From Candidatus Melainabacteria bacterium (GTDB lineage Bacteria > Cyanobacteriota > Vampirovibrionia > Obscuribacterales > Obscuribacteraceae): DNA of 64,000 nucleotides. Shown here piece after piece: positions 7,466 through 44,387 of the stretch. The notes under the pieces are model-generated. The model saw only the letters and a list, made by a program, of their open reading frames with translations. It did not search any database and was not told where the DNA came from. Where the stretch lies: assembly GCA_003963305.1 (NCBI GenBank), contig RXJR01000015.1:186001-250000 (forward strand), read 5' to 3'. Positions within the stretch are counted from its first letter, which is position 1. Every line of letters starts with the position of its first letter. The position numbers and the translations under genes are program-made.

Positions 7466-9694
7466 CTAACCAGCCTTGAGATCGTAACGGTCGTTATTCA
7501 TGACTTTGGTCCAGGCATTCACAAAATCACGAATGAATTTTTCTTGCGAATCGTCCGAACCATAGACCTCAGCGACTGCACGCAACTCCGAACTTGAACC
7601 GAAAATCAAATCAACCGGACTCGCTGTCCATCTCAACTTGTCAGTCTTGCGGTCATGTCCCTCATAAACGCCCTCGGTTGTGGATTTAGACCACTTCGTA
7701 GACATGTCGAGCAAATTGACGAAGAAATCGTTGCTCAACGTGCCCGGGCGACTTGTAAACACTCCCAGCTGGGAATGCCCCTCATTGGCGTCGAGTGCTC
7801 TCATTCCGCCGACCAGTACGGTCATCTCAGGAACAGTCAAACGAAGCAAATCAGCTCGCTCAACCAACAATTCTGCTGGAGAACGCTCATTGCCTTTGCC
7901 GTAGTAGTTACGGAAGCCATCAAAAGTCGGCTCTAGAACCGCAAAAGAAGTCTCATCAGTCTGCGCTTGCGAGGCATCAGTGCGACCGGGAGCAAATGGT
8001 ACAGTCACATTCGAACCCGCTTTCTTTGCAGCTTGCTCAACGGCTGCATTGCCACCCAGCACAATCAAATCGGCAAGAGAAACCTTCTTACCGTCAGCTG
8101 AATGCTGGCTGTTGAATTCACTTTGAATGCCTTCCAGAGTTTTCAAAACTTTCGCCAGCGATTCAGGGTCATTTACAGCCCAGTCTTTCTGCGGCGCAAG
8201 GCGAATGCGTGCACCATTTGCACCACCTCTCTTGTCAGTGCCACGGAAAGTAGCAGCTGAAGCCCACGCAGTTTTGACCAGTTCTGAGGAGGAAATTCCA
8301 GATGCGAGAATCTTTGCTTTCAATGCTGAGGCATCAGAATCATCGATCAATTTGTAATCAACTGCCGGAACTGGATCTTGCCAGATCAGCGCTTCCTTAG
8401 GCACCTCAGATCCCAGATAACGAGACAGTGGACCCATATCGCGATGAGTCAACTTGTACCAGGCTTTCGCAAATGCAAGTTTGAATTCTTCTGGATTGTC
8501 GCGGAAACGTTTTACGATTGGAGCGTAGACCGGATCGAACTTCAAGCCGAGATCAGTTGTGAACATCATCGGAGCATGTCGTTTGGAAGAGTCGTGCGCA
8601 TCGGGTACCGGTTTCACCTTTGCCGGATCTTTCGGAGTCCACTGGATTGCACCAGCCGGACTCTTTGTCTGCACCCAATCGTTATCAAGCAAATTGTTCA
8701 AATACTGCATCGTAAAGAAGATTGGTGAGGACGACCAGGCACCTTCCAAGCCACTAGTGATGGTGTCAGCGCCTTTGCCGGTGCCATACTTGTTTGCCCA
8801 GCCGAATCCCTGTTGCTCGATTGGTGACCCTGCTGGTGCGGGACCGAGGTTCGACCCAGCAGCAGCTCCATGAGCCTTACCGAAAGTATGACCGCCGGCA
8901 ATCAAAGCGACAGTCTCTTCGTCATTCATCGCCATTCGTCCAAAAGCTTCACGCGTATCCTTTGCAGCCAGCAAGGGATCTGGATTGCCGTTGGGTCCCT
9001 CTGGATTTACATAAATCAAACCCATTTGAGTTGCAGCGAGCGGTTTCTCTAAGGTTCCGCCTTTGCTGCGATTGTCTGACATAAACTTCGCGCCTGGTCC
9101 CCAGTAAACCAGGTCCGACTGCCAGTCGTCAGATCGTCCACCACCGAATCCATAAGGTTTGAAACCCATCGATTCCAATGAAACGTTGCCAGTCAATACC
9201 ATCAAATCGCCCCACGATAGCTTGCGACCGTATTTCTTCTTGACCGGCCACAACAATCTTCGCGCCTTATCAAGGTTGGCGTTATCGGGCCAGCTGTTGA
9301 GTGGCTCGAACCTCTGTTGTGCACCAGCGGCGCCACCACGTCCGTCGAATATTCTGTAAGTACCTGCGCCATGCCACGCCATGCGAATGAAGAACGGAGC
9401 ATAACTGCCAAAATCTGCAGGCCACCAATCTTGCGAAGTACTCAAAACAGTTTTGATATCTTGCTTAACCGCATTGAGATCAAGGGTCTGAAACTCTTTG
9501 CCGTAATTGAACTCATTACCAAACGGATTTGACTCAATGTCGTGTGCTCGCAAAGGCGATAGGTCAAGTCGATCCGGCCACCAGAACTGATTTGGGCGAG
9601 CAGCACCATCTGCCCAGGCTGGAATAGCCTGTGCAAGTAAGGAAATCACAACGGACTGGACTATTAAGGCGGCGGTTGTTCGTTTCGTCATCAT
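7466..9694 (-). CDS. katG: Exported catalase-peroxidase
   Basis: 742 residues; bifunctional haem enzyme that dismutates hydrogen peroxide and oxidises donors. Distal-pocket residues are visible as [14 protein letters not shown] (Arg104, Trp107, His108) and proximal His269 as [10 protein letters not shown]. The unique Trp-Tyr-Met cofactor is accounted for by Trp107, Tyr228 ([12 protein letters not shown]) and Met254 ([10 protein letters not shown]). The duplicated C-terminal peroxidase-like domain is complete. Unusually for KatG, the N-terminus ([24 protein letters not shown], then PAWADG) is a Sec-type signal peptide, which indicates a periplasmic enzyme of the KatP/KatG2 type. Either of two adjacent start codons is possible. 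It has its own promoter region with overlapping palindromes and a 3' stem-loop, so it is monocistronic. Confidence 0.95.
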
Positions 9695-14009: not shown

Positions 14010-14975
14010 CTACAAGGAAACCATCAAAGGAAGTCGAACGATAAATTCTGTTCCACGACCTAGTGAACTAACACAGTCAACTCTTCCTTCCAGTTTTTCA
14101 ACCAGAGTCTTACATAAGTGAAGCCCGAGCCCTGTGCCCATGGTCGAATAAGGTCCTCTCTTACTTTGCCAGAATTTTTCGAAAATCTGTTTTTGATCCA
14201 GTGCACAAATACCATTACCGTTATCTTTGACCTTAATTATGAGATGCTCGACTTCCAGCTCAGCTGACACCGAAACAATCGAGCCTTCCGGGCTAAATTT
14301 GATAGCGTTATCGAGAAGATTCGTGATGATGCGCGCCAATATTTGCTTGTCTGTCAGCACGGGCGGCATTTCGGTCTGAAGTTGTAAATCCAATCCTATG
14401 TGGTTGATCGCAATCGAACTCGCCAACTGCTTACTGCATTCTCTGATCAGTTCCGGCACATCAACCGCTTCCAGCCTTAGAAGCAGTGACGACTCTTTTG
14501 CTCGATAAGCTTCCAGAATATTCCAAAGAGTGCGCAACATCGATTGATGCGAATCAGTCAAACTATCTAGAAGCTGGCGGTAAGTGGCGTCGGAGATACC
14601 TTTCTTGAGCACTTCGAATATTCGAAGTCCGCCTGTAAGAGAGCTCTTCAAATCATGCGCAACAGCAGCCAGAAATTCTTCATTTCTTATAGCCTGCTCT
14701 CGTAGTTCTTGATTTTCCTTTTGAAGCTGCGCACACTTAAGCTCTAATTCTCTGATTCTCGTTTTAAGATGTAATTTCTTTCGGTAGTCACGATCGATAG
14801 AATCAATTTGCTTGAGGTCAGAGGCGCCGGAATCACTTGAAACGAGCAAGTCGGAGGGATTGATTATGTTTAGAGCATCCCGGCACCCGTCACTAATTAC
14901 TAATTCAGACGGAATTATTACTTCAATCGCCCTTTCAAGGTCGTGCTCGATATGGTTTTCGTTAGTCCGCTGCAT
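14010..14975 (-). CDS. Soluble sensor histidine kinase
   Basis: 321 residues, no transmembrane segment. The N-terminal 65 residues have no recognised sensor domain. A coiled coil (about 66-100: KTRIRELELKCAQLQKENQELREQ) leads into the HisKA domain with phospho-acceptor His107 in LAAVAHDLKSSL. The HATPase domain has NLLDNAIKFSPEG (N box), VKDNGNGI (G1) and GTGLGLHLC (G2). Autophosphorylates on His and passes phosphate to a receiver. Its obvious partner is the receiver-Ser/Thr-kinase protein encoded immediately upstream in the same operon, about 48 bases away. ATG 14975 follows GGTGA at good spacing; GTG codons at 14987 are alternatives. Confidence 0.9.
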   Translation of the reverse strand: MQRTNENHIEHDLERAIEVIIPSELVISDGCRDALNIINPSDLLVSSDSGASDLKQIDSIDRDYRKKLHLKTRIRELELKCAQLQKENQELREQAIRNEEFLAAVAHDLKSSLTGGLRIFEVLKKGISDATYRQLLDSLTDSHQSMLRTLWNILEAYRAKESSLLLRLEAVDVPELIRECSKQLASSIAINHIGLDLQLQTEMPPVLTDKQILARIITNLLDNAIKFSPEGSIVSVSAELEVEHLIIKVKDNGNGICALDQKQIFEKFWQSKRGPYSTMGTGLGLHLCKTLVEKLEGRVDCVSSLGRGTEFIVRLPLMVSL

Positions 14976-15023
14976 ACACTTCACCACATAAGAATTTCGA
15001 AGTACGAGAGACCACCGGATTAG

Positions 15024-16610
15024 CTAGAGAACAATCGAAATTTCATCACAATCAAGATCAGCAAATTGATCGAAATACGCTTTGGATAGAGCTAATTTGA
15101 GCTGCATCGGCGTTTGAAACCTGGCGTCAGGGTTCTTGTCGAGCAGCTTAAAAACTATCTCCTCAATGCTGTCGGGCAGGTGCAACTCCGGAGCGACACT
15201 GGCAAAAGACGCTGGCATCTCCTGCAAGTGCTTCGAGATGCATTCCATTGCACTGAGACCAGACGCGGCTTGATGCCCAGTAAGTGCCTCATACATGACA
15301 CAACCAAGAGAGTACAAATCGCTTCGCAGATCCAGGCGTCCGCCTCTGCACTGTTCAGGACTCATATAGGCAGGACTTCCACACAAGTCGAAGCTATCCG
15401 TCAGCTGCATCTGAATAGAAGCTTGCGGCGGTGGCAAGATTTTAGCCAAACCAAAATCAATTAGCTTGGTGGTCATTTGCCCATCGTTAGTGCCTAGCAA
15501 AACTATGTTGCCGGGCTTAATATCGCAATGGATTACATCTTTAGAGTGCGCGGCAACAAGAGCATTACAAACCTGGTCGAAGATATTATGAAATTCCGGC
15601 AGTGTCAGCCGACCCTTTTGCCGCAAAAGAGTTTCCAGGGTCGTTCCCTCGATGTAATCCATCACTATAAAGGATTGCCCCTTTTGGGTGATGCCAAAAT
15701 CAAAAACTTGAACTGTATTCGGATGCACTAACGCTGCGGCAGCACGTGCTTCGTCTTGAAACAACCGAACGACACGACGATCTGCGGCGAACTGGGGGAG
15801 TAAGACTTTGATGGCGACAATCTTCTCTGTATGAATATGCTTGGCTTTATATACTCGCCCCATGCCTCCGCGACCAACATGGGAAAGGATCAGATATTTA
15901 TCAGCAAAAATCTCTCCAATAGTAAGTATGGATGACTGATGAGTATCTACTGATACATCGGCGATCTTGGCAGCAAACTGCTTCCGAAGCTGTTTGCTAC
16001 GCTCATTTTTGTCACCCGTCAAGAAGAGCGCCTCCACCGCATCACGCATCATGACCCGCAATTGTTCAGTTGTGGCACCCATTTCCGAGGCAATTTCTTC
16101 ATTGCTGAGCCCCTGCTCTACGTAACACAACAGATCAAGCATATCGGCATCCAGACTCTTTGACTCAGGCTGTTGATCATAAGATCCCATACGGGTTTGT
16201 TGCAGCCGCTCGGCAATTCTCGAATCCAGCCACATTCCATTGTTGTGCACGGTTACAATCGCCTCAGACAGCTGCTCGATTGGGACATCCTTCAAGCAAA
16301 ATCCATCAGCGCCACTGCCCAGAGCAGCGAGGATGTCTTTGTCTGTGTCATGAGACGTGAGCATTATCACCCGAGTCTGAGGGCATCTACTCTTGATTTG
16401 ATAGCTTGCTTCGATTCCATCCATGGTGGGCAGAGCGATGTCCATCAAAACAATATCCGGCTTCAGCTCAATCACTTTATCCACAGCCACACGACCATCG
16501 GATGCCTCTCCAACCACCAAAAACTTTTCCAAACTCTGGAGCAGTACACGCAGCCCGATACGAACAATTTGGTGATCTTCTACGATCAATATCTTTATCA
16601 GTTCAGTCAT
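15024..16610 (-). CDS. Receiver-HTH-Ser/Thr protein kinase fusion
   Basis: 528 residues. Residues about 4-120 form a NarL-type receiver (IKILIVEDHQIVRIGL, phospho-acceptor Asp57 in IVLMDIALPTMDG, Thr85, Lys107). Residues about 150-200 resemble a LuxR/sigma-like helix-turn-helix (LSNEEIASEMGATTEQLRVMM). Residues about 235-500 form a complete Hanks-type kinase: VGRGGMGRVYKAK, Lys268, HCDIKPGN with catalytic Asp363, DFGLAK, and APE-like SPEQC. The usual HRD is HCD, which in other kinases tends to remove dependence on activation-loop phosphorylation. Output is therefore phosphorylation of Ser/Thr in target proteins gated by a two-component phosphorelay, with the histidine kinase encoded directly downstream. 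ATG 16610 is preferred to 16622; neither has an ideal ribosome-binding site. Confidence 0.9.
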   Translation of the reverse strand: MTELIKILIVEDHQIVRIGLRVLLQSLEKFLVVGEASDGRVAVDKVIELKPDIVLMDIALPTMDGIEASYQIKSRCPQTRVIMLTSHDTDKDILAALGSGADGFCLKDVPIEQLSEAIVTVHNNGMWLDSRIAERLQQTRMGSYDQQPESKSLDADMLDLLCYVEQGLSNEEIASEMGATTEQLRVMMRDAVEALFLTGDKNERSKQLRKQFAAKIADVSVDTHQSSILTIGEIFADKYLILSHVGRGGMGRVYKAKHIHTEKIVAIKVLLPQFAADRRVVRLFQDEARAAAALVHPNTVQVFDFGITQKGQSFIVMDYIEGTTLETLLRQKGRLTLPEFHNIFDQVCNALVAAHSKDVIHCDIKPGNIVLLGTNDGQMTTKLIDFGLAKILPPPQASIQMQLTDSFDLCGSPAYMSPEQCRGGRLDLRSDLYSLGCVMYEALTGHQAASGLSAMECISKHLQEMPASFASVAPELHLPDSIEEIVFKLLDKNPDARFQTPMQLKLALSKAYFDQFADLDCDEISIVL

Positions 16611-17097
16611 GGGAGATTCCATTCCTTTGCACCCAACCAGGCAGGCACGTTAACACAGGAAAACTGCGACGCAGCCTACACTGAGAGTGAGACAAAAATC
16701 AGCTGAGTCCATCTTTGTCGGACAAATGGACCATTTAAATAAGCAGGAAATTAAGCCCGATGCTTAAAACGCGATTGATGTATATCTACTATAAGTCACG
16801 TTACCAATATTAGTAATCACGCTGTTGAGGTATTAATTGCACCAGCGAAATACAGTCAACTCAACAGTTTATCTAAACTCCATCTCGTCTGTCGACTTGA
16901 TTTATTCTGCCGACAAAGACTCGAATCGCATACATCCGATTCGCTTAAAACCAACAAAACCCTCTATTATTGAGCGTCTTCACAGACAGCCAACGAAGAA
17001 GCAGAAAAAACTCTTCGTGATACCGCCCCGCATCTGTTGTATATAATCGACAATGCCGATGCATTATATTCGGCTGAGTTGGCAACCGCACGTAACA
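16611..17097. other. Intergenic region with a 16-base near-palindrome
   Basis: About 490 bases between the REC-kinase operon and the GATase-like gene. TTACCAATATTAGTAA at 16801-16816 is a near-perfect palindrome (one mismatched pair) about 190 bases upstream of the operon start and could be an operator. Small frames here have no support. The remainder is AT-rich and featureless to me. Confidence 0.35.
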
Positions 17098-18168
17098 CTA
17101 TTGAGGGTGAGAAAGCGCGCTCATTATGAAGTTCAGCGAAATTACCTGACGCAGACTGATGGTGCTTTGAGGCGCTGGATCGGGAAGAATCGACTGCGAC
17201 GAAAGATCTGTATTATTGTCGACGTGACCTATAGTATGCAGAACATGCCCTTTTCCAAAATCGAAAGTTAGAGCAAGTACTCCTAGACCGACCGTGTCTT
17301 GATTGCTCAAGGCGCGACTGCGCGCCAGCACCTGCAGACTTCTGCGTGCACCGGGCTTGACTAACTGACTTTTGTCATCGAGTTTCCATGGGCCCGTTGG
17401 GCTGGCTCCTTTAACAAGTGGCGAATCAGGAATGACCACGACGCCATCAATGATTTCACTTGTTGAGTAGGCACCATCCCAATAAACATAGCCTGGACAA
17501 ATCTTTTGCAGACAACCACTCAAAGACCAATCTGTTGTGAGCAAACAACCACCAGCCTCGACAAATTTTCGCACGACTTCAACACTGCTGTCCGAGAGTT
17601 CCCCTGGACAATTGATTATAAGTAAACGCGCCCGATTCAAGCGGTTTGCCAAATTCGAGTTATCGCCTGTAACGTACGGAATTTTGCAGGCATCTAGAAC
17701 ATGCTCGGCATGATCATATCGCCCTTTGATAACAACGACGTCTGATGGTTTGATAGCAGCCACAGGCAGATCAGGATAGTTGACGTTTATCCACCGCCGA
17801 AAAACATCCGAAGCCAGATGCACTTGCTTGACGCGACCAAGAACTGGAGCCTGTTTCAAGAGATCGTTGGCAACATCGCCGGTGCCTCGGTTGACACCGT
17901 CGTCTAGATTGTCATCTTCACCAACTCGTCCAGTTAGAACTGTCGGCGCTTTTTGAGGCAAGACATGTTGCACCTGCGTGTGCACCACAGGCGGTTTATA
18001 TCGGGAATATTTTCCAGTATTCGGAACCTTTTGAACGCGAGTAGTGTAGTAAGTTGTTGCAGGCTGCACTTCAATCACTTCCACACGACTTGTGGAAGAT
18101 TGTCCAGCGCAAGCAGGTAAGATTTCAGACGAAGCGCAGAAAGTCATCATCGCAATACTAAGGATCAT
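17098..18168 (-). CDS. Exported protein with class I glutamine-amidotransferase-like fold
   Basis: 356 residues from ATG 18168; signal peptide MILSIAMMTFCASSEILPACAG. After a linker, residues from about 155 show alternating strands and helices: SDVVVIKGRYDHAEHVL, IPYVTGDN, RARLLIINCPGEL, VRKFVEAGGCLLTTDW. This is the DUF4159/ThuA-like GATase1 fold in which a domain predicts a flexible 'lid' but lacks a convincing Cys-His-Glu triad. A C-terminal LALTFDFGKGHVLHTIGH is typical of this group (a beta strand then GKG.V). Role unknown, perhaps binding in the periplasm. The longer frame to 18231 (TTG) remains possible. First of several exported proteins in this stretch. Confidence 0.6.
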   Translation of the reverse strand: MILSIAMMTFCASSEILPACAGQSSTSRVEVIEVQPATTYYTTRVQKVPNTGKYSRYKPPVVHTQVQHVLPQKAPTVLTGRVGEDDNLDDGVNRGTGDVANDLLKQAPVLGRVKQVHLASDVFRRWINVNYPDLPVAAIKPSDVVVIKGRYDHAEHVLDACKIPYVTGDNSNLANRLNRARLLIINCPGELSDSSVEVVRKFVEAGGCLLTTDWSLSGCLQKICPGYVYWDGAYSTSEIIDGVVVIPDSPLVKGASPTGPWKLDDKSQLVKPGARRSLQVLARSRALSNQDTVGLGVLALTFDFGKGHVLHTIGHVDNNTDLSSQSILPDPAPQSTISLRQVISLNFIMSALSHPQ

Positions 18169-18262
18169 CCTGGCTGATCTGGCTTGCGTAAATGATAGAT
18201 TCAGCAATTTAAAATCATCCTGGCATTTCAACTTGCAAGCGACCTATTCGAAATCAGAATTA

Positions 18263-40911: not shown

Positions 40912-42558
40912 ATGAACGAAAAGATACAAGATTCAGACATAGTGCTTAAAAACACGGATGAGTTCGCAACAGAACCATCCGAAACTCAGCTACCCGGCTT
41001 CCATGACTTAAGGTTAATCGCAAACGGCACATCCGGCTACGTTTACTCTGCGCGGCGTGACATCGACAACAAAGCCCTCGCCGTCAAAGTCTACGAGAAG
41101 TCGCTCATACCAGACGCAGATGCGGTCAGACGCTTCGAACATGAAGTGAGTACTCTTCAACAGTTATCACATCCGAATATAGTCAAAATTTTCGGCTACG
41201 GCACGACCGAGTCAGGACAGCCATACATCGTCATGGAGAACGTCGAAGGGAAAAACCTTCGCAAACTACTCAGCGAAAACGGTGCGCTCGAAACAAATCG
41301 TGCGGCCACGGCTGCCAGAGAAGTTTGTCGAGCACTGATCGCAGCACACGAACGGGGCATCATCCACAGAGATTTGAAGCCAACCAACATTATTCTGGAC
41401 GACAGAAACATAGCAAAAGTCGTTGATTTCGGCATAGCCAAAGCAGTCGGTTCTGCAAATGATACCATTACCGAATATGGTGCCATCATAGGCACCCCGG
41501 CTTACATGAGCCCTGAGCAATGCTTAAATCAGCGTACTGACGAAAGGTCAGATATCTATTCTCTCGGTTGTACTTTATTTGAGTTGCTGACAAATGAGAA
41601 AGCATTCGAGGCGGAAACAGCCATCACTGCGCTGGCAAAACAAATCAACAAAGATCGCAGTCACCTCAAACCAGTTCTTGACAGACATAAAATTCCTCCT
41701 GAGCTTCAACAGATAGTGCTGAAGTGCCTCGAAAGGAATCCTGAGAATCGGTACAACACCGCTCTGGAACTTGATCATGCTCTAAGCGGATATCTGTTGC
41801 AGGTCGAACAAACGCCAGCAATCAGTGCCAAAATGAGCACAAGCACTCAAACTATTCTCTGTGTCTGTGCTTTGATTGCTGTCCTGGTTGTATTTGAAAC
41901 GGCGTTATTCCACGCCCGAGAGACGATAGAAGCAGATCCAGGACACCCTATGCCGACGTCAAATGTAAGTGTAGTAGGCACGACCAACGGATCAGAGCTG
42001 AAAACAGTCGAAATCAAAAATCGTCTTACAGGCGCGGTGATCTTTTCAGAATCTGCTGTCGGATTGAACATTAAAAGGGCTGTCAAAGATGCAGCCAGCA
42101 AAGGGGTTTCGCTAGCATATGCCGATCTGAAGAATGCAGACCTGACTCAGGTGGAGTTGAATGACGCAAATTTGCACTTGGCTGACTTGACCGACGCAAA
42201 GCTTATACAAGCCCGGCTCTCGGACGACAAGTTCGACGGAGCCATTTTGACTGGAGCCAACTTGAGCCAGGCAAATCTAAACAGATGCACTTTTCGCGAT
42301 AGCAAAATGAGTTCCGTAGACCTTGTCCAAACACAAGCTCCATTCACGGATTTCCGGGACGCGGATCTGACTAATGCAAAACTGGTACAAGCGAACTTAA
42401 CCAACTGTGACTTGAGAAACGCAGATCTAACCGAAGCAAAATTTTCGCAGGCTCGATTTGCAGGATCAAACATTACCAATGCAAAGATGGCTTCCAACGA
42501 TCAGTTTAACAAACCTGACATTAAAGGCAGCACTATAAATGGTGTCACTATTAGATAG
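40912..42558 (+). CDS. Membrane Ser/Thr protein kinase with pentapeptide-repeat sensor
   Basis: 548 residues. Kinase domain about 28-290: Gly-rich IANGTSGYVYSA, Lys59, catalytic HRDLKPTN (Asp154), DFG (Asp172), GTPAYMSPEQC. One transmembrane helix at about 308-327 (TILCVCALIAVLVVFETALF). An extracytoplasmic C-terminal region carries pentapeptide repeats (A(D/N)LxxAxL pattern: ADLKNADLTQVELNDANLHLADL ...) from about 400 to 535, which form a right-handed quadrilateral beta helix, probably a sensor or binding surface. Closely similar to the next gene, so the pair is a tandem duplication. Sits between the muramidase and an MDR enzyme on the plus strand, within the type IV machine region. Confidence 0.92.
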   Translation: MNEKIQDSDIVLKNTDEFATEPSETQLPGFHDLRLIANGTSGYVYSARRDIDNKALAVKVYEKSLIPDADAVRRFEHEVSTLQQLSHPNIVKIFGYGTTESGQPYIVMENVEGKNLRKLLSENGALETNRAATAAREVCRALIAAHERGIIHRDLKPTNIILDDRNIAKVVDFGIAKAVGSANDTITEYGAIIGTPAYMSPEQCLNQRTDERSDIYSLGCTLFELLTNEKAFEAETAITALAKQINKDRSHLKPVLDRHKIPPELQQIVLKCLERNPENRYNTALELDHALSGYLLQVEQTPAISAKMSTSTQTILCVCALIAVLVVFETALFHARETIEADPGHPMPTSNVSVVGTTNGSELKTVEIKNRLTGAVIFSESAVGLNIKRAVKDAASKGVSLAYADLKNADLTQVELNDANLHLADLTDAKLIQARLSDDKFDGAILTGANLSQANLNRCTFRDSKMSSVDLVQTQAPFTDFRDADLTNAKLVQANLTNCDLRNADLTEAKFSQARFAGSNITNAKMASNDQFNKPDIKGSTINGVTIR

Positions 42559-42668
42559 GCGTACTCGGAATGAGCACACAACAACAGAGGAACAAAATAT
42601 TCGTAGAGCAACTCTGACTCAACCGACTATGAAGGAATTCAGCGCCAACTCAAATGCAGGAAAGCCCA

Positions 42669-44387
42669 ATGGGAAATGACGACGATAAAGAACTCCAATC
42701 AGACCAAAACAAATTCAAGCAAAAACAAGAAGAACACGTCAATCTCAAGATCAGCGACCCGGTTCAGACATCTTTGAAGATTGCAACTGAATGCGCAGCT
42801 CCGGTCCAGGGATTTCATGACTTTGAACAACTTGCAGAAGGAGCCACTGGCGTCGTCTATTCAGCAAAATCAGATGAAGACGAATCCAAAGTGGCAATCA
42901 AGATATACAAACGTGAACTTATTTCGGACAGTGATTCGGCCAAACGATTTGAGCGCGAAGTAAAAGCACTTGGACAGATCAATCATCCGAACATCGCACA
43001 AATCATCACGTCTGGTCAGACGACTTCCGGTCAGGCTTACATTGTCATGGAACTGGTCGACGGGGCCAGCATTCGAACCCTTCTCGAAACAGAAGGCGTC
43101 TTCGAACCAATACGCGCAGTCAAAGTAACACGCGAAATCTGTCGCGCCCTGGAGGCGCTGCATGCTCAAGAAATCGTTCATCGAGATCTCAAGCCAAACA
43201 ATATTATTCTGGATTCGAATAACATCGCAAAAATAGTCGACTTCGGAATCGCCAAACTTCTCAATTCCAGCGGAGACACAATCACTCAATATGGCTCGAT
43301 ACTTGGAACGCCAGCCTACATGAGCCCAGAACAATGCCTGGGTCAAAGAGTGGATGAAAGATCAGATGTCTATTCTGTAGGTTGTACACTCTTCGAAATG
43401 CTAACCGGAATGAAAGCATTCGAGTCTCAGACAGCAATGGAAGCTCTTGCTAAACAGATAGACGAAGATCGAAGTCATCTGGAAAAGCCACTCGCCGCCG
43501 CGGGAGCCCCCAAAGACCTGCGAGCCATCATTCTCAAGTGTCTCCAGAGAGAGCCTGATGGACGCTACAAGAACGTTGCTGAGTTATCGCATGACCTTGG
43601 TGCTTTCCAGCTGGGTCATCCGCTCACGTTCGCGCACAAAAACAAATCTGCCGGTTCGGTGCACGATTTCAAAAAACTGAATCTGGAGAAAATTCGTCCA
43701 TACTGGCAAATCATCGCATGCTGCGCGGCCTTTCTCCTTGCGGCCTCTGTCATTCGGTTCAATCTGGAATCGCTAAAGCAAGACCATTCTTATTCACCAG
43801 AGGTGAATCATCGAAACGAGACGCCTTTTGTAATCCGCAACAGAAAGACGCTGGAGCCGCTTTATTCAGACCCGAAGTGCTTCACCCCCAAAGATACCCT
43901 GGTCAGTGCTCTAAAGCGTCATGCGGACCTGCAATACGCCGATCTTTCAGGGAGAGAATTATCCAACTGCAATCTCGACGGCATTAATCTAGCGAATGCC
44001 GACCTGTCACGCGCCAATCTCAGCTACAGCAGCCTTCAGAATGCTGACCTGCACGGAGCATTTTTGCGGTATACAAATTTCGAGCAGGCTAATTTAAGAA
44101 GAGCAGACTTATCAGCTTCGATACTTGATGGAGCAAACTTGCGCCAAGCATCAGCAAGATATGCAAGTTTTATGGGCGCCGATTTGTCGCGAGCAGATTT
44201 GAGCGATGGAAATTTCCAGGAGACAAATTTTCGCAACTCAAATATGTACGTTACCCAACTTCGCGGAGCCACATTGATGGGCGCAGATTTCAGTTATGCA
44301 GACTGCAACTACACTCACTGGAAAAGCCGTTCGTCGCCTGCTGAAAGCAAGTTTGAAGGCACGAAGAATCTGAATTTCAATTTATGA
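42669..44387 (+). CDS. Membrane Ser/Thr protein kinase with pentapeptide-repeat sensor, paralogue of the previous gene
   Basis: 572 residues from ATG 42669, five codons inside the open frame, because AGGAAAG lies at ideal spacing. Kinase domain from about 40 (EGATGVVYSAK, KIYKRELISDSD, HRDLKPNN, DFGIAKLL, GTPAYMSPEQCLG). Membrane helix near 352-370 (YWQIIACCAAFLLAASVI) and a pentapeptide domain (ADLQYADLSGREL, NCNLDGINLANADLSRANL ...) to the end. Kinase sequence and repeat design match the preceding protein, including an identical activation-loop stretch, but the linker and sensor have diverged. The spacer between the two genes is 110 bases with no obvious terminator. Confidence 0.92.
   Translation: MGNDDDKELQSDQNKFKQKQEEHVNLKISDPVQTSLKIATECAAPVQGFHDFEQLAEGATGVVYSAKSDEDESKVAIKIYKRELISDSDSAKRFEREVKALGQINHPNIAQIITSGQTTSGQAYIVMELVDGASIRTLLETEGVFEPIRAVKVTREICRALEALHAQEIVHRDLKPNNIILDSNNIAKIVDFGIAKLLNSSGDTITQYGSILGTPAYMSPEQCLGQRVDERSDVYSVGCTLFEMLTGMKAFESQTAMEALAKQIDEDRSHLEKPLAAAGAPKDLRAIILKCLQREPDGRYKNVAELSHDLGAFQLGHPLTFAHKNKSAGSVHDFKKLNLEKIRPYWQIIACCAAFLLAASVIRFNLESLKQDHSYSPEVNHRNETPFVIRNRKTLEPLYSDPKCFTPKDTLVSALKRHADLQYADLSGRELSNCNLDGINLANADLSRANLSYSSLQNADLHGAFLRYTNFEQANLRRADLSASILDGANLRQASARYASFMGADLSRADLSDGNFQETNFRNSNMYVTQLRGATLMGADFSYADCNYTHWKSRSSPAESKFEGTKNLNFNL

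Follow-up and report, generated by a model that had tools for sequence, protein, structure and literature searches.

In the window (the whole 64,000-nucleotide stretch of DNA analysed here), we identified a gene in which a response-regulator receiver (REC), a degenerate helix-turn-helix (HTH) and a Hanks-type Ser/Thr kinase (STPK) are joined in a single open reading frame beside a histidine kinase gene. We read the encoded protein, with a probability of roughly 70%, as a two-component response regulator whose output has been switched from transcription to Ser/Thr phosphorylation, acting through the neighbouring histidine kinase and D57 of the receiver. Because the fusion belongs to a family of 35 members, half of which adjoin a histidine kinase, the protein very probably serves as an in-built converter that links two types of phosphorylation signalling.

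The fusion protein and its genomic setting

The features of the locus are as follows:

15024..16622, minus strand: REC-HTH-STPK gene, 532 amino acids from the ATG at 16622 or 528 amino acids from the ATG at 16610
16257..16592, minus strand: receiver domain, residues 7-118 (Pfam Response_reg, E 4.5e-28)
16440-16442, minus strand: codon of the phospho-acceptor D57
16290-16292, minus strand: codon of receiver K107
16023..16160, minus strand: degenerate LuxR/GerE-type HTH, residues ~151-196, in which the core is retained and the DNA-contact residues have been lost
15108..15890, minus strand: Hanks-type (PknB-like) Ser/Thr kinase domain, residues 241-501 (Pfam Pkinase, E 8e-47)
15522-15530, minus strand: HCD motif, residues 361-363
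14010..14987, minus strand: soluble HisKA/HATPase_c histidine kinase, 325 amino acids, downstream of the fusion gene and its probable partner

Residue numbers refer to the 528-amino acid form unless stated otherwise. This form, which starts at the second in-frame ATG, matches the span 15024-16610 given in the initial annotation, where the minus strand was left unstated. That annotation had described a receiver fused directly to a Hanks kinase, with the active site of the former and the motifs of the latter intact. Pfam placed both domains within the single open reading frame, which has no internal stop, and inspection of individual residues agreed with the description. The receiver contains D12, D57, T85 and K107. 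The kinase carries the Gly loop (GRGGMG, fitting GxGxxG), the VAIK Lys (K268), the alpha-C Glu (E287), the HxD..N residues (HCD 361-363 and N368), DFG (385-387) and SPE (417-419) at the APE position, as expected of a Hanks-type kinase. Receiver residues and a catalytic domain occur in one polypeptide, as in response regulators with enzymatic output. PknB of M. tuberculosis was the best solved match to the kinase domain by both sequence and fold, and its activation-loop threonine positions are occupied by T/S in the window kinase when the two are aligned. The predicted structure of the fusion protein had a mean pLDDT of 84 over the whole model and a pTM of 0.60, so the relative placement of the domains is not fixed by the model; the linker between HTH and kinase is long and poorly conserved.

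The signalling repertoire of the genome (7.48 Mb in 44 contigs) is greatly expanded: Pkinase gave 115 matches and HATPase_c 121. Photosystem reaction-centre proteins (PF00124) were absent from this genome and from the class-mates tested, and were present in seven of eight same-phylum genomes of other classes, a pattern that points to a non-photosynthetic class of Cyanobacteriota (Vampirovibrionia/Melainabacteria). Elsewhere in the window, a tandem pair of Ser/Thr kinases of the HRD type is encoded at 40912-42558 and 42654-44387 (plus strand); both contain a membrane-like segment and, at the C-terminus, a region resembling pentapeptide repeats (A(D/N)Lxx). A catalase-peroxidase (KatG)-like protein with an apparent N-terminal signal peptide, judged from the translation alone, is encoded at 7466-9694 (minus strand). 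Upstream of the fusion, 17098-18231 (minus strand) encodes a 377-amino acid protein that had no Pfam match at E 0.1.

Spread, origin and divergence of the fusion family

The initial annotation had proposed a search for other REC-STPK fusions. A search of 60 related genomes, which included the 36 of the window genome's own family, yielded 35 loci for full-length REC-HTH-STPK proteins. They were distributed over 19 of those 36 genomes, and four lay in the window's own genome. A phylum-wide search of 292 genomes, in which the best five candidates per genome were scored, gave a full-length match only in the window's own genome among the matches listed; those listed from other genomes were essentially the kinase domain alone. 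A scan of genome contigs matched receiver halves only. Across the fusions, D57, T85 and K107 were kept in all 35 and D12 in 34. The kinase residues K, E, H, D and N and the Asp and Gly of DFG were invariant, and PF00069 was found in 34/34 aligned members.

In a tree of the receiver and HTH, the 35 fused sequences formed one clade (98/86) apart from other free NarL regulators, with one free-standing regulator nested inside it; some branches were long, and exact placement is uncertain. Since the fused receivers fall in a single clade, the tree suggests that the fusion arose once in an ancestor and then expanded within this lineage, and that the kinase was perhaps lost again in one case. The nested NarL-type regulator, L170 (G006:C120), is a possible case of such secondary loss of the kinase domain, as judged from its position in the tree. 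The histidine kinase next to it (L116) is the best match to that of the window.

We compared the HTH of the fusions with that of free-standing NarL regulators. The region up to residue ~195 aligned with the LuxR/NarL-type models NarL and MctR, and both VraR and NarL were among the relatives with solved structures. GerE gave no Pfam match above threshold in the window protein and was detectable in 20 of 34 fusion members. We scored the LTxRE and TVKxH positions, which we take, from general knowledge of the NarL, DosR and GerE structures, to be DNA-contact or DNA-face sites. The LTxRE Arg was present in 2/35 fusions versus 26/27 free regulators of the same genomes; for TVKxH, the corresponding counts were 8/35 versus 26/27 (Thr), 8/35 versus 25/27 (Lys/Arg) and 3/35 versus 25/27 (His). 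The window protein has D156, Q183, R185 and M187 at these four positions. Hydrophobic core positions were equally conserved in both groups, and the model keeps three HTH helices (159-169, 174-181 and 185-200 in 532-amino acid numbering) with moderate confidence. The window protein and its family therefore lack the combination of a GerE HTH and DNA-contact residues that marks a NarL/LuxR-type transcription factor. Because these residues were lost while the core and three helices were kept, the fused HTH has probably become a coupler, serving structure or dimerisation, and no longer reads DNA.

The same region bears on the possibility that the protein is still a transcription factor, in which phosphorylation of the receiver would trigger DNA binding through the HTH, and the kinase would have as its target the regulator itself or the transcription machinery. 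The trihelical core, the detectable GerE in part of the family and the alignment of the REC-HTH part with NarL/VraR over its length are in keeping with this idea. However, the DNA-contact positions were lost relative to free regulators of the same organisms even though the core was retained, and the window member is among those with no GerE match. We consider continued action as a transcription factor unlikely.

The family is also divided at the residue preceding the catalytic Asp, which is Cys (HCD) in 18 of the 35 fusions and Arg (HRD) in 17. Other kinase ORFs in the fetched loci (about 56 distinct) comprised 55 with HRD and one with HKD, and none had HCD; two HCD matches listed among them are slices of fusion genes. 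The change from HRD to HCD pointed out in the initial annotation is therefore real, and it is no lesion, being the normal state in about half of the fusions. With Cys in place of Arg, the window protein is not an RD-type Hanks kinase. Since RD is not needed for catalysis, HCD marks a subgroup rather than inactivity, and a dead kinase is unlikely given the invariance of the other catalytic residues and the frequency of Cys. Non-RD kinases are generally controlled otherwise than by activation-loop phosphorylation. A non-RD loop would thus suit control by a receiver; half of the family keeps HRD. A related arrangement was seen at L083:4478-5953, a PAS-STPK with HCD and a kinase similar to those of the REC-STPK family, in which PAS replaces the receiver, possibly through a sensor swap; 33 bp downstream of it is a histidine-kinase-like ORF.

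Histidine kinase linkage and the direction of signalling

The histidine kinase that the initial annotation had placed next door is a separate, intact ORF on the same strand, 36 bases downstream of the fusion gene. It matched HATPase_c with an E of 7.6e-26 and HisKA with an E of 9.8e-6 (26.0 bits, slightly below the cut-off of 26.9). The phospho-His H111 and the N, G1, F and G2 boxes are intact (motifs at 111, 223, 255, 269 and 284), as in an orthodox HisKA kinase.

Histidine-kinase ORFs lay within 50 bp of 17 of the 35 fusions versus 0 of 37 other STPK genes (69 and 58 flanks examined, respectively). Their arrangements, upstream, downstream or convergent, were scattered over the family tree, indicating that the linkage is not a single inherited accident. 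For the other 18 fusions no such ORF lay within this distance; many are accordingly orphans or have remote partners. At the two loci tested (L077 and L091), the partners are HisKA-HATPase-REC-Hpt relay kinases, which end in Hpt and therefore need a terminal receiver.

In a histidine-kinase tree, 12 partners, including that of the window, fell in one clade (99/94). In this clade, 18 of 26 rows adjoin a NarL-type receiver, fused or free, a proportion biased upward because NarL receivers had been used to fetch part of the background. When kinases of the window's own genome were sampled by Pfam score, 28 of 30 fell outside the clade, and none of these 28 adjoins a NarL-type receiver. The closest relatives of the window histidine kinase have as their neighbour either a REC-STPK (L117) or a free-standing regulator of the NarL type (L116 and L119). 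The nearest relatives of the window fusion, L085 and L067 (the latter from its own genome), have a different histidine kinase, located upstream and bearing an N-terminal receiver (REC-HisKA), which indicates that partners have been exchanged. The linkage and the tree placement thus favour the partnership that the initial annotation had called cognate, and at the window locus we infer rather than observe it.

In the mechanism that we infer, the neighbouring soluble histidine kinase would autophosphorylate and pass the phosphoryl group to D57. The phosphorylated receiver would most likely dimerise, as NarL/VraR-type regulators do, with the HTH-derived domain limited to a coupling role, either structural or in dimerisation. 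Dimerisation would bring together or release the PknB-like kinase domains, so that control would run from receiver to kinase, and the kinase would then phosphorylate Ser/Thr residues of its substrates, presumably other proteins.

Signals might instead flow the other way, with the Ser/Thr kinase, constitutive or driven by another input, phosphorylating the receiver, HTH or histidine kinase and so tuning the two-component system. STPKs are generally known to cross-phosphorylate two-component proteins, and the T/S residues at the PknB activation-loop threonine positions would fit such a kinase. Yet the relay Asp is kept in every fusion and Hpt-ending relay kinases lie adjacent, both of which fit the receiver as the input, and the kinase has no other fused sensor domain. 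Reverse flow therefore appears improbable. It is very unlikely that the receiver is only a dock or phosphate sink with no effect on kinase activity; the long, poorly conserved linker would permit this, but the active site is fully conserved and a single ancestral fusion has been kept across deep divergence. A frameshift or sequencing or assembly error joining two genes, for which we found no supporting evidence, can be dismissed, because the identical architecture recurs at 35 loci in 19 genomes and the window gene reads through without a stop. The initial annotation had named such an error, together with loss of the phospho-acceptor Asp in homologues, as grounds against its reading; D57 is present in 35/35, which rules out the latter as well. 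Recurrence of the fusion and invariance of the phospho-Asp thus support the interpretation of the protein as a receiver-controlled kinase.

More tentatively, the family may represent a lineage-specific class of receiver-gated kinases. Such a class would have arisen by one fusion, its DNA binding would have decayed to a coupling role, and half of its members would have switched to a non-RD (HCD) catalytic loop. Receiver dimerisation would replace activation-loop phosphorylation as the on-switch, and the genes would have spread in multiple copies, many with their own histidine kinase. It would be a one-protein analogue of the yeast junction between relay and MAP kinase.

Crosstalk between His-Asp and Ser/Thr signalling in bacteria is mostly described as contact between separate networks. 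Here a single polypeptide forms the junction; it is present in many copies, and a free-standing histidine kinase is encoded next to it. As the window pair consists of two soluble proteins, the direction and mechanism of signal conversion are open to direct in vitro tests. The family also offers a path from transcription factor to enzyme regulator.

Comparison with known systems

Several matches outside the family were rejected as co-linear REC-STPK fusions. The actinobacterial plasmid matches to both halves (Nonomuraea, Nocardia and Rhodococcus) are separate adjoining regulator and kinase genes. The phage match H41 is a PASTA-type kinase ORF without a receiver, preceded by a separate LysM/transglycosylase-like ORF. 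A plasmid protein of Ca. Chlorohelix (Chloroflexota; WP_341472197.1, L113:5971-7599) has the same three domains, with a histidine kinase gene 45 bases upstream. However, its domain order is the opposite (STPK-REC-HTH, kinase first) and its GerE HTH is intact (E 4e-14); on these features it is an independent, convergent fusion, the one such protein that our searches found beyond the phylum.

The word 'receiver' is absent from the text of a 2005 survey of more than 600 prokaryotic STYK architectures (PMC1262709), and Table 5 of a classification of cyanobacterial response regulators contains no class with an STPK output (PMC9953108). Enzymatic outputs are already known among response regulators, and a wider census, for example of domain databases, could still show that this fusion has been catalogued. 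The cyanobacterial dual kinases STK-GAF-HisKA (cbSTKIII, HstK) are known STK-histidine kinase fusions, which, like the family described here, join Ser/Thr and His-Asp signalling at the gene level in the same phylum (PMC2176072). In those proteins it is the histidine kinase that is joined to the STK, whereas in the window the fusion involves the receiver, and HisKA and HATPase_c lie on a separate ORF.

With NarL/FixJ/LuxR-type regulators (NarL, VraR), the fusion shares the receiver and HTH over ~195 residues; unlike them, it lacks the DNA-contact residues and has a C-terminal kinase domain. It has all catalytic motifs in common with PknB-type Hanks kinases (PF00069), but has neither PASTA nor any other domain C-terminal to the kinase, and possesses an N-terminal receiver and a non-RD HCD loop. 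In the yeast HOG-type relay, the receiver protein Ssk1 activates a MAP kinase kinase kinase. This resembles the arrangement proposed for the window protein, a Ser/Thr kinase under the control of a phosphorelay receiver, but in yeast the two are separate proteins, whereas in the window they form one bacterial polypeptide.
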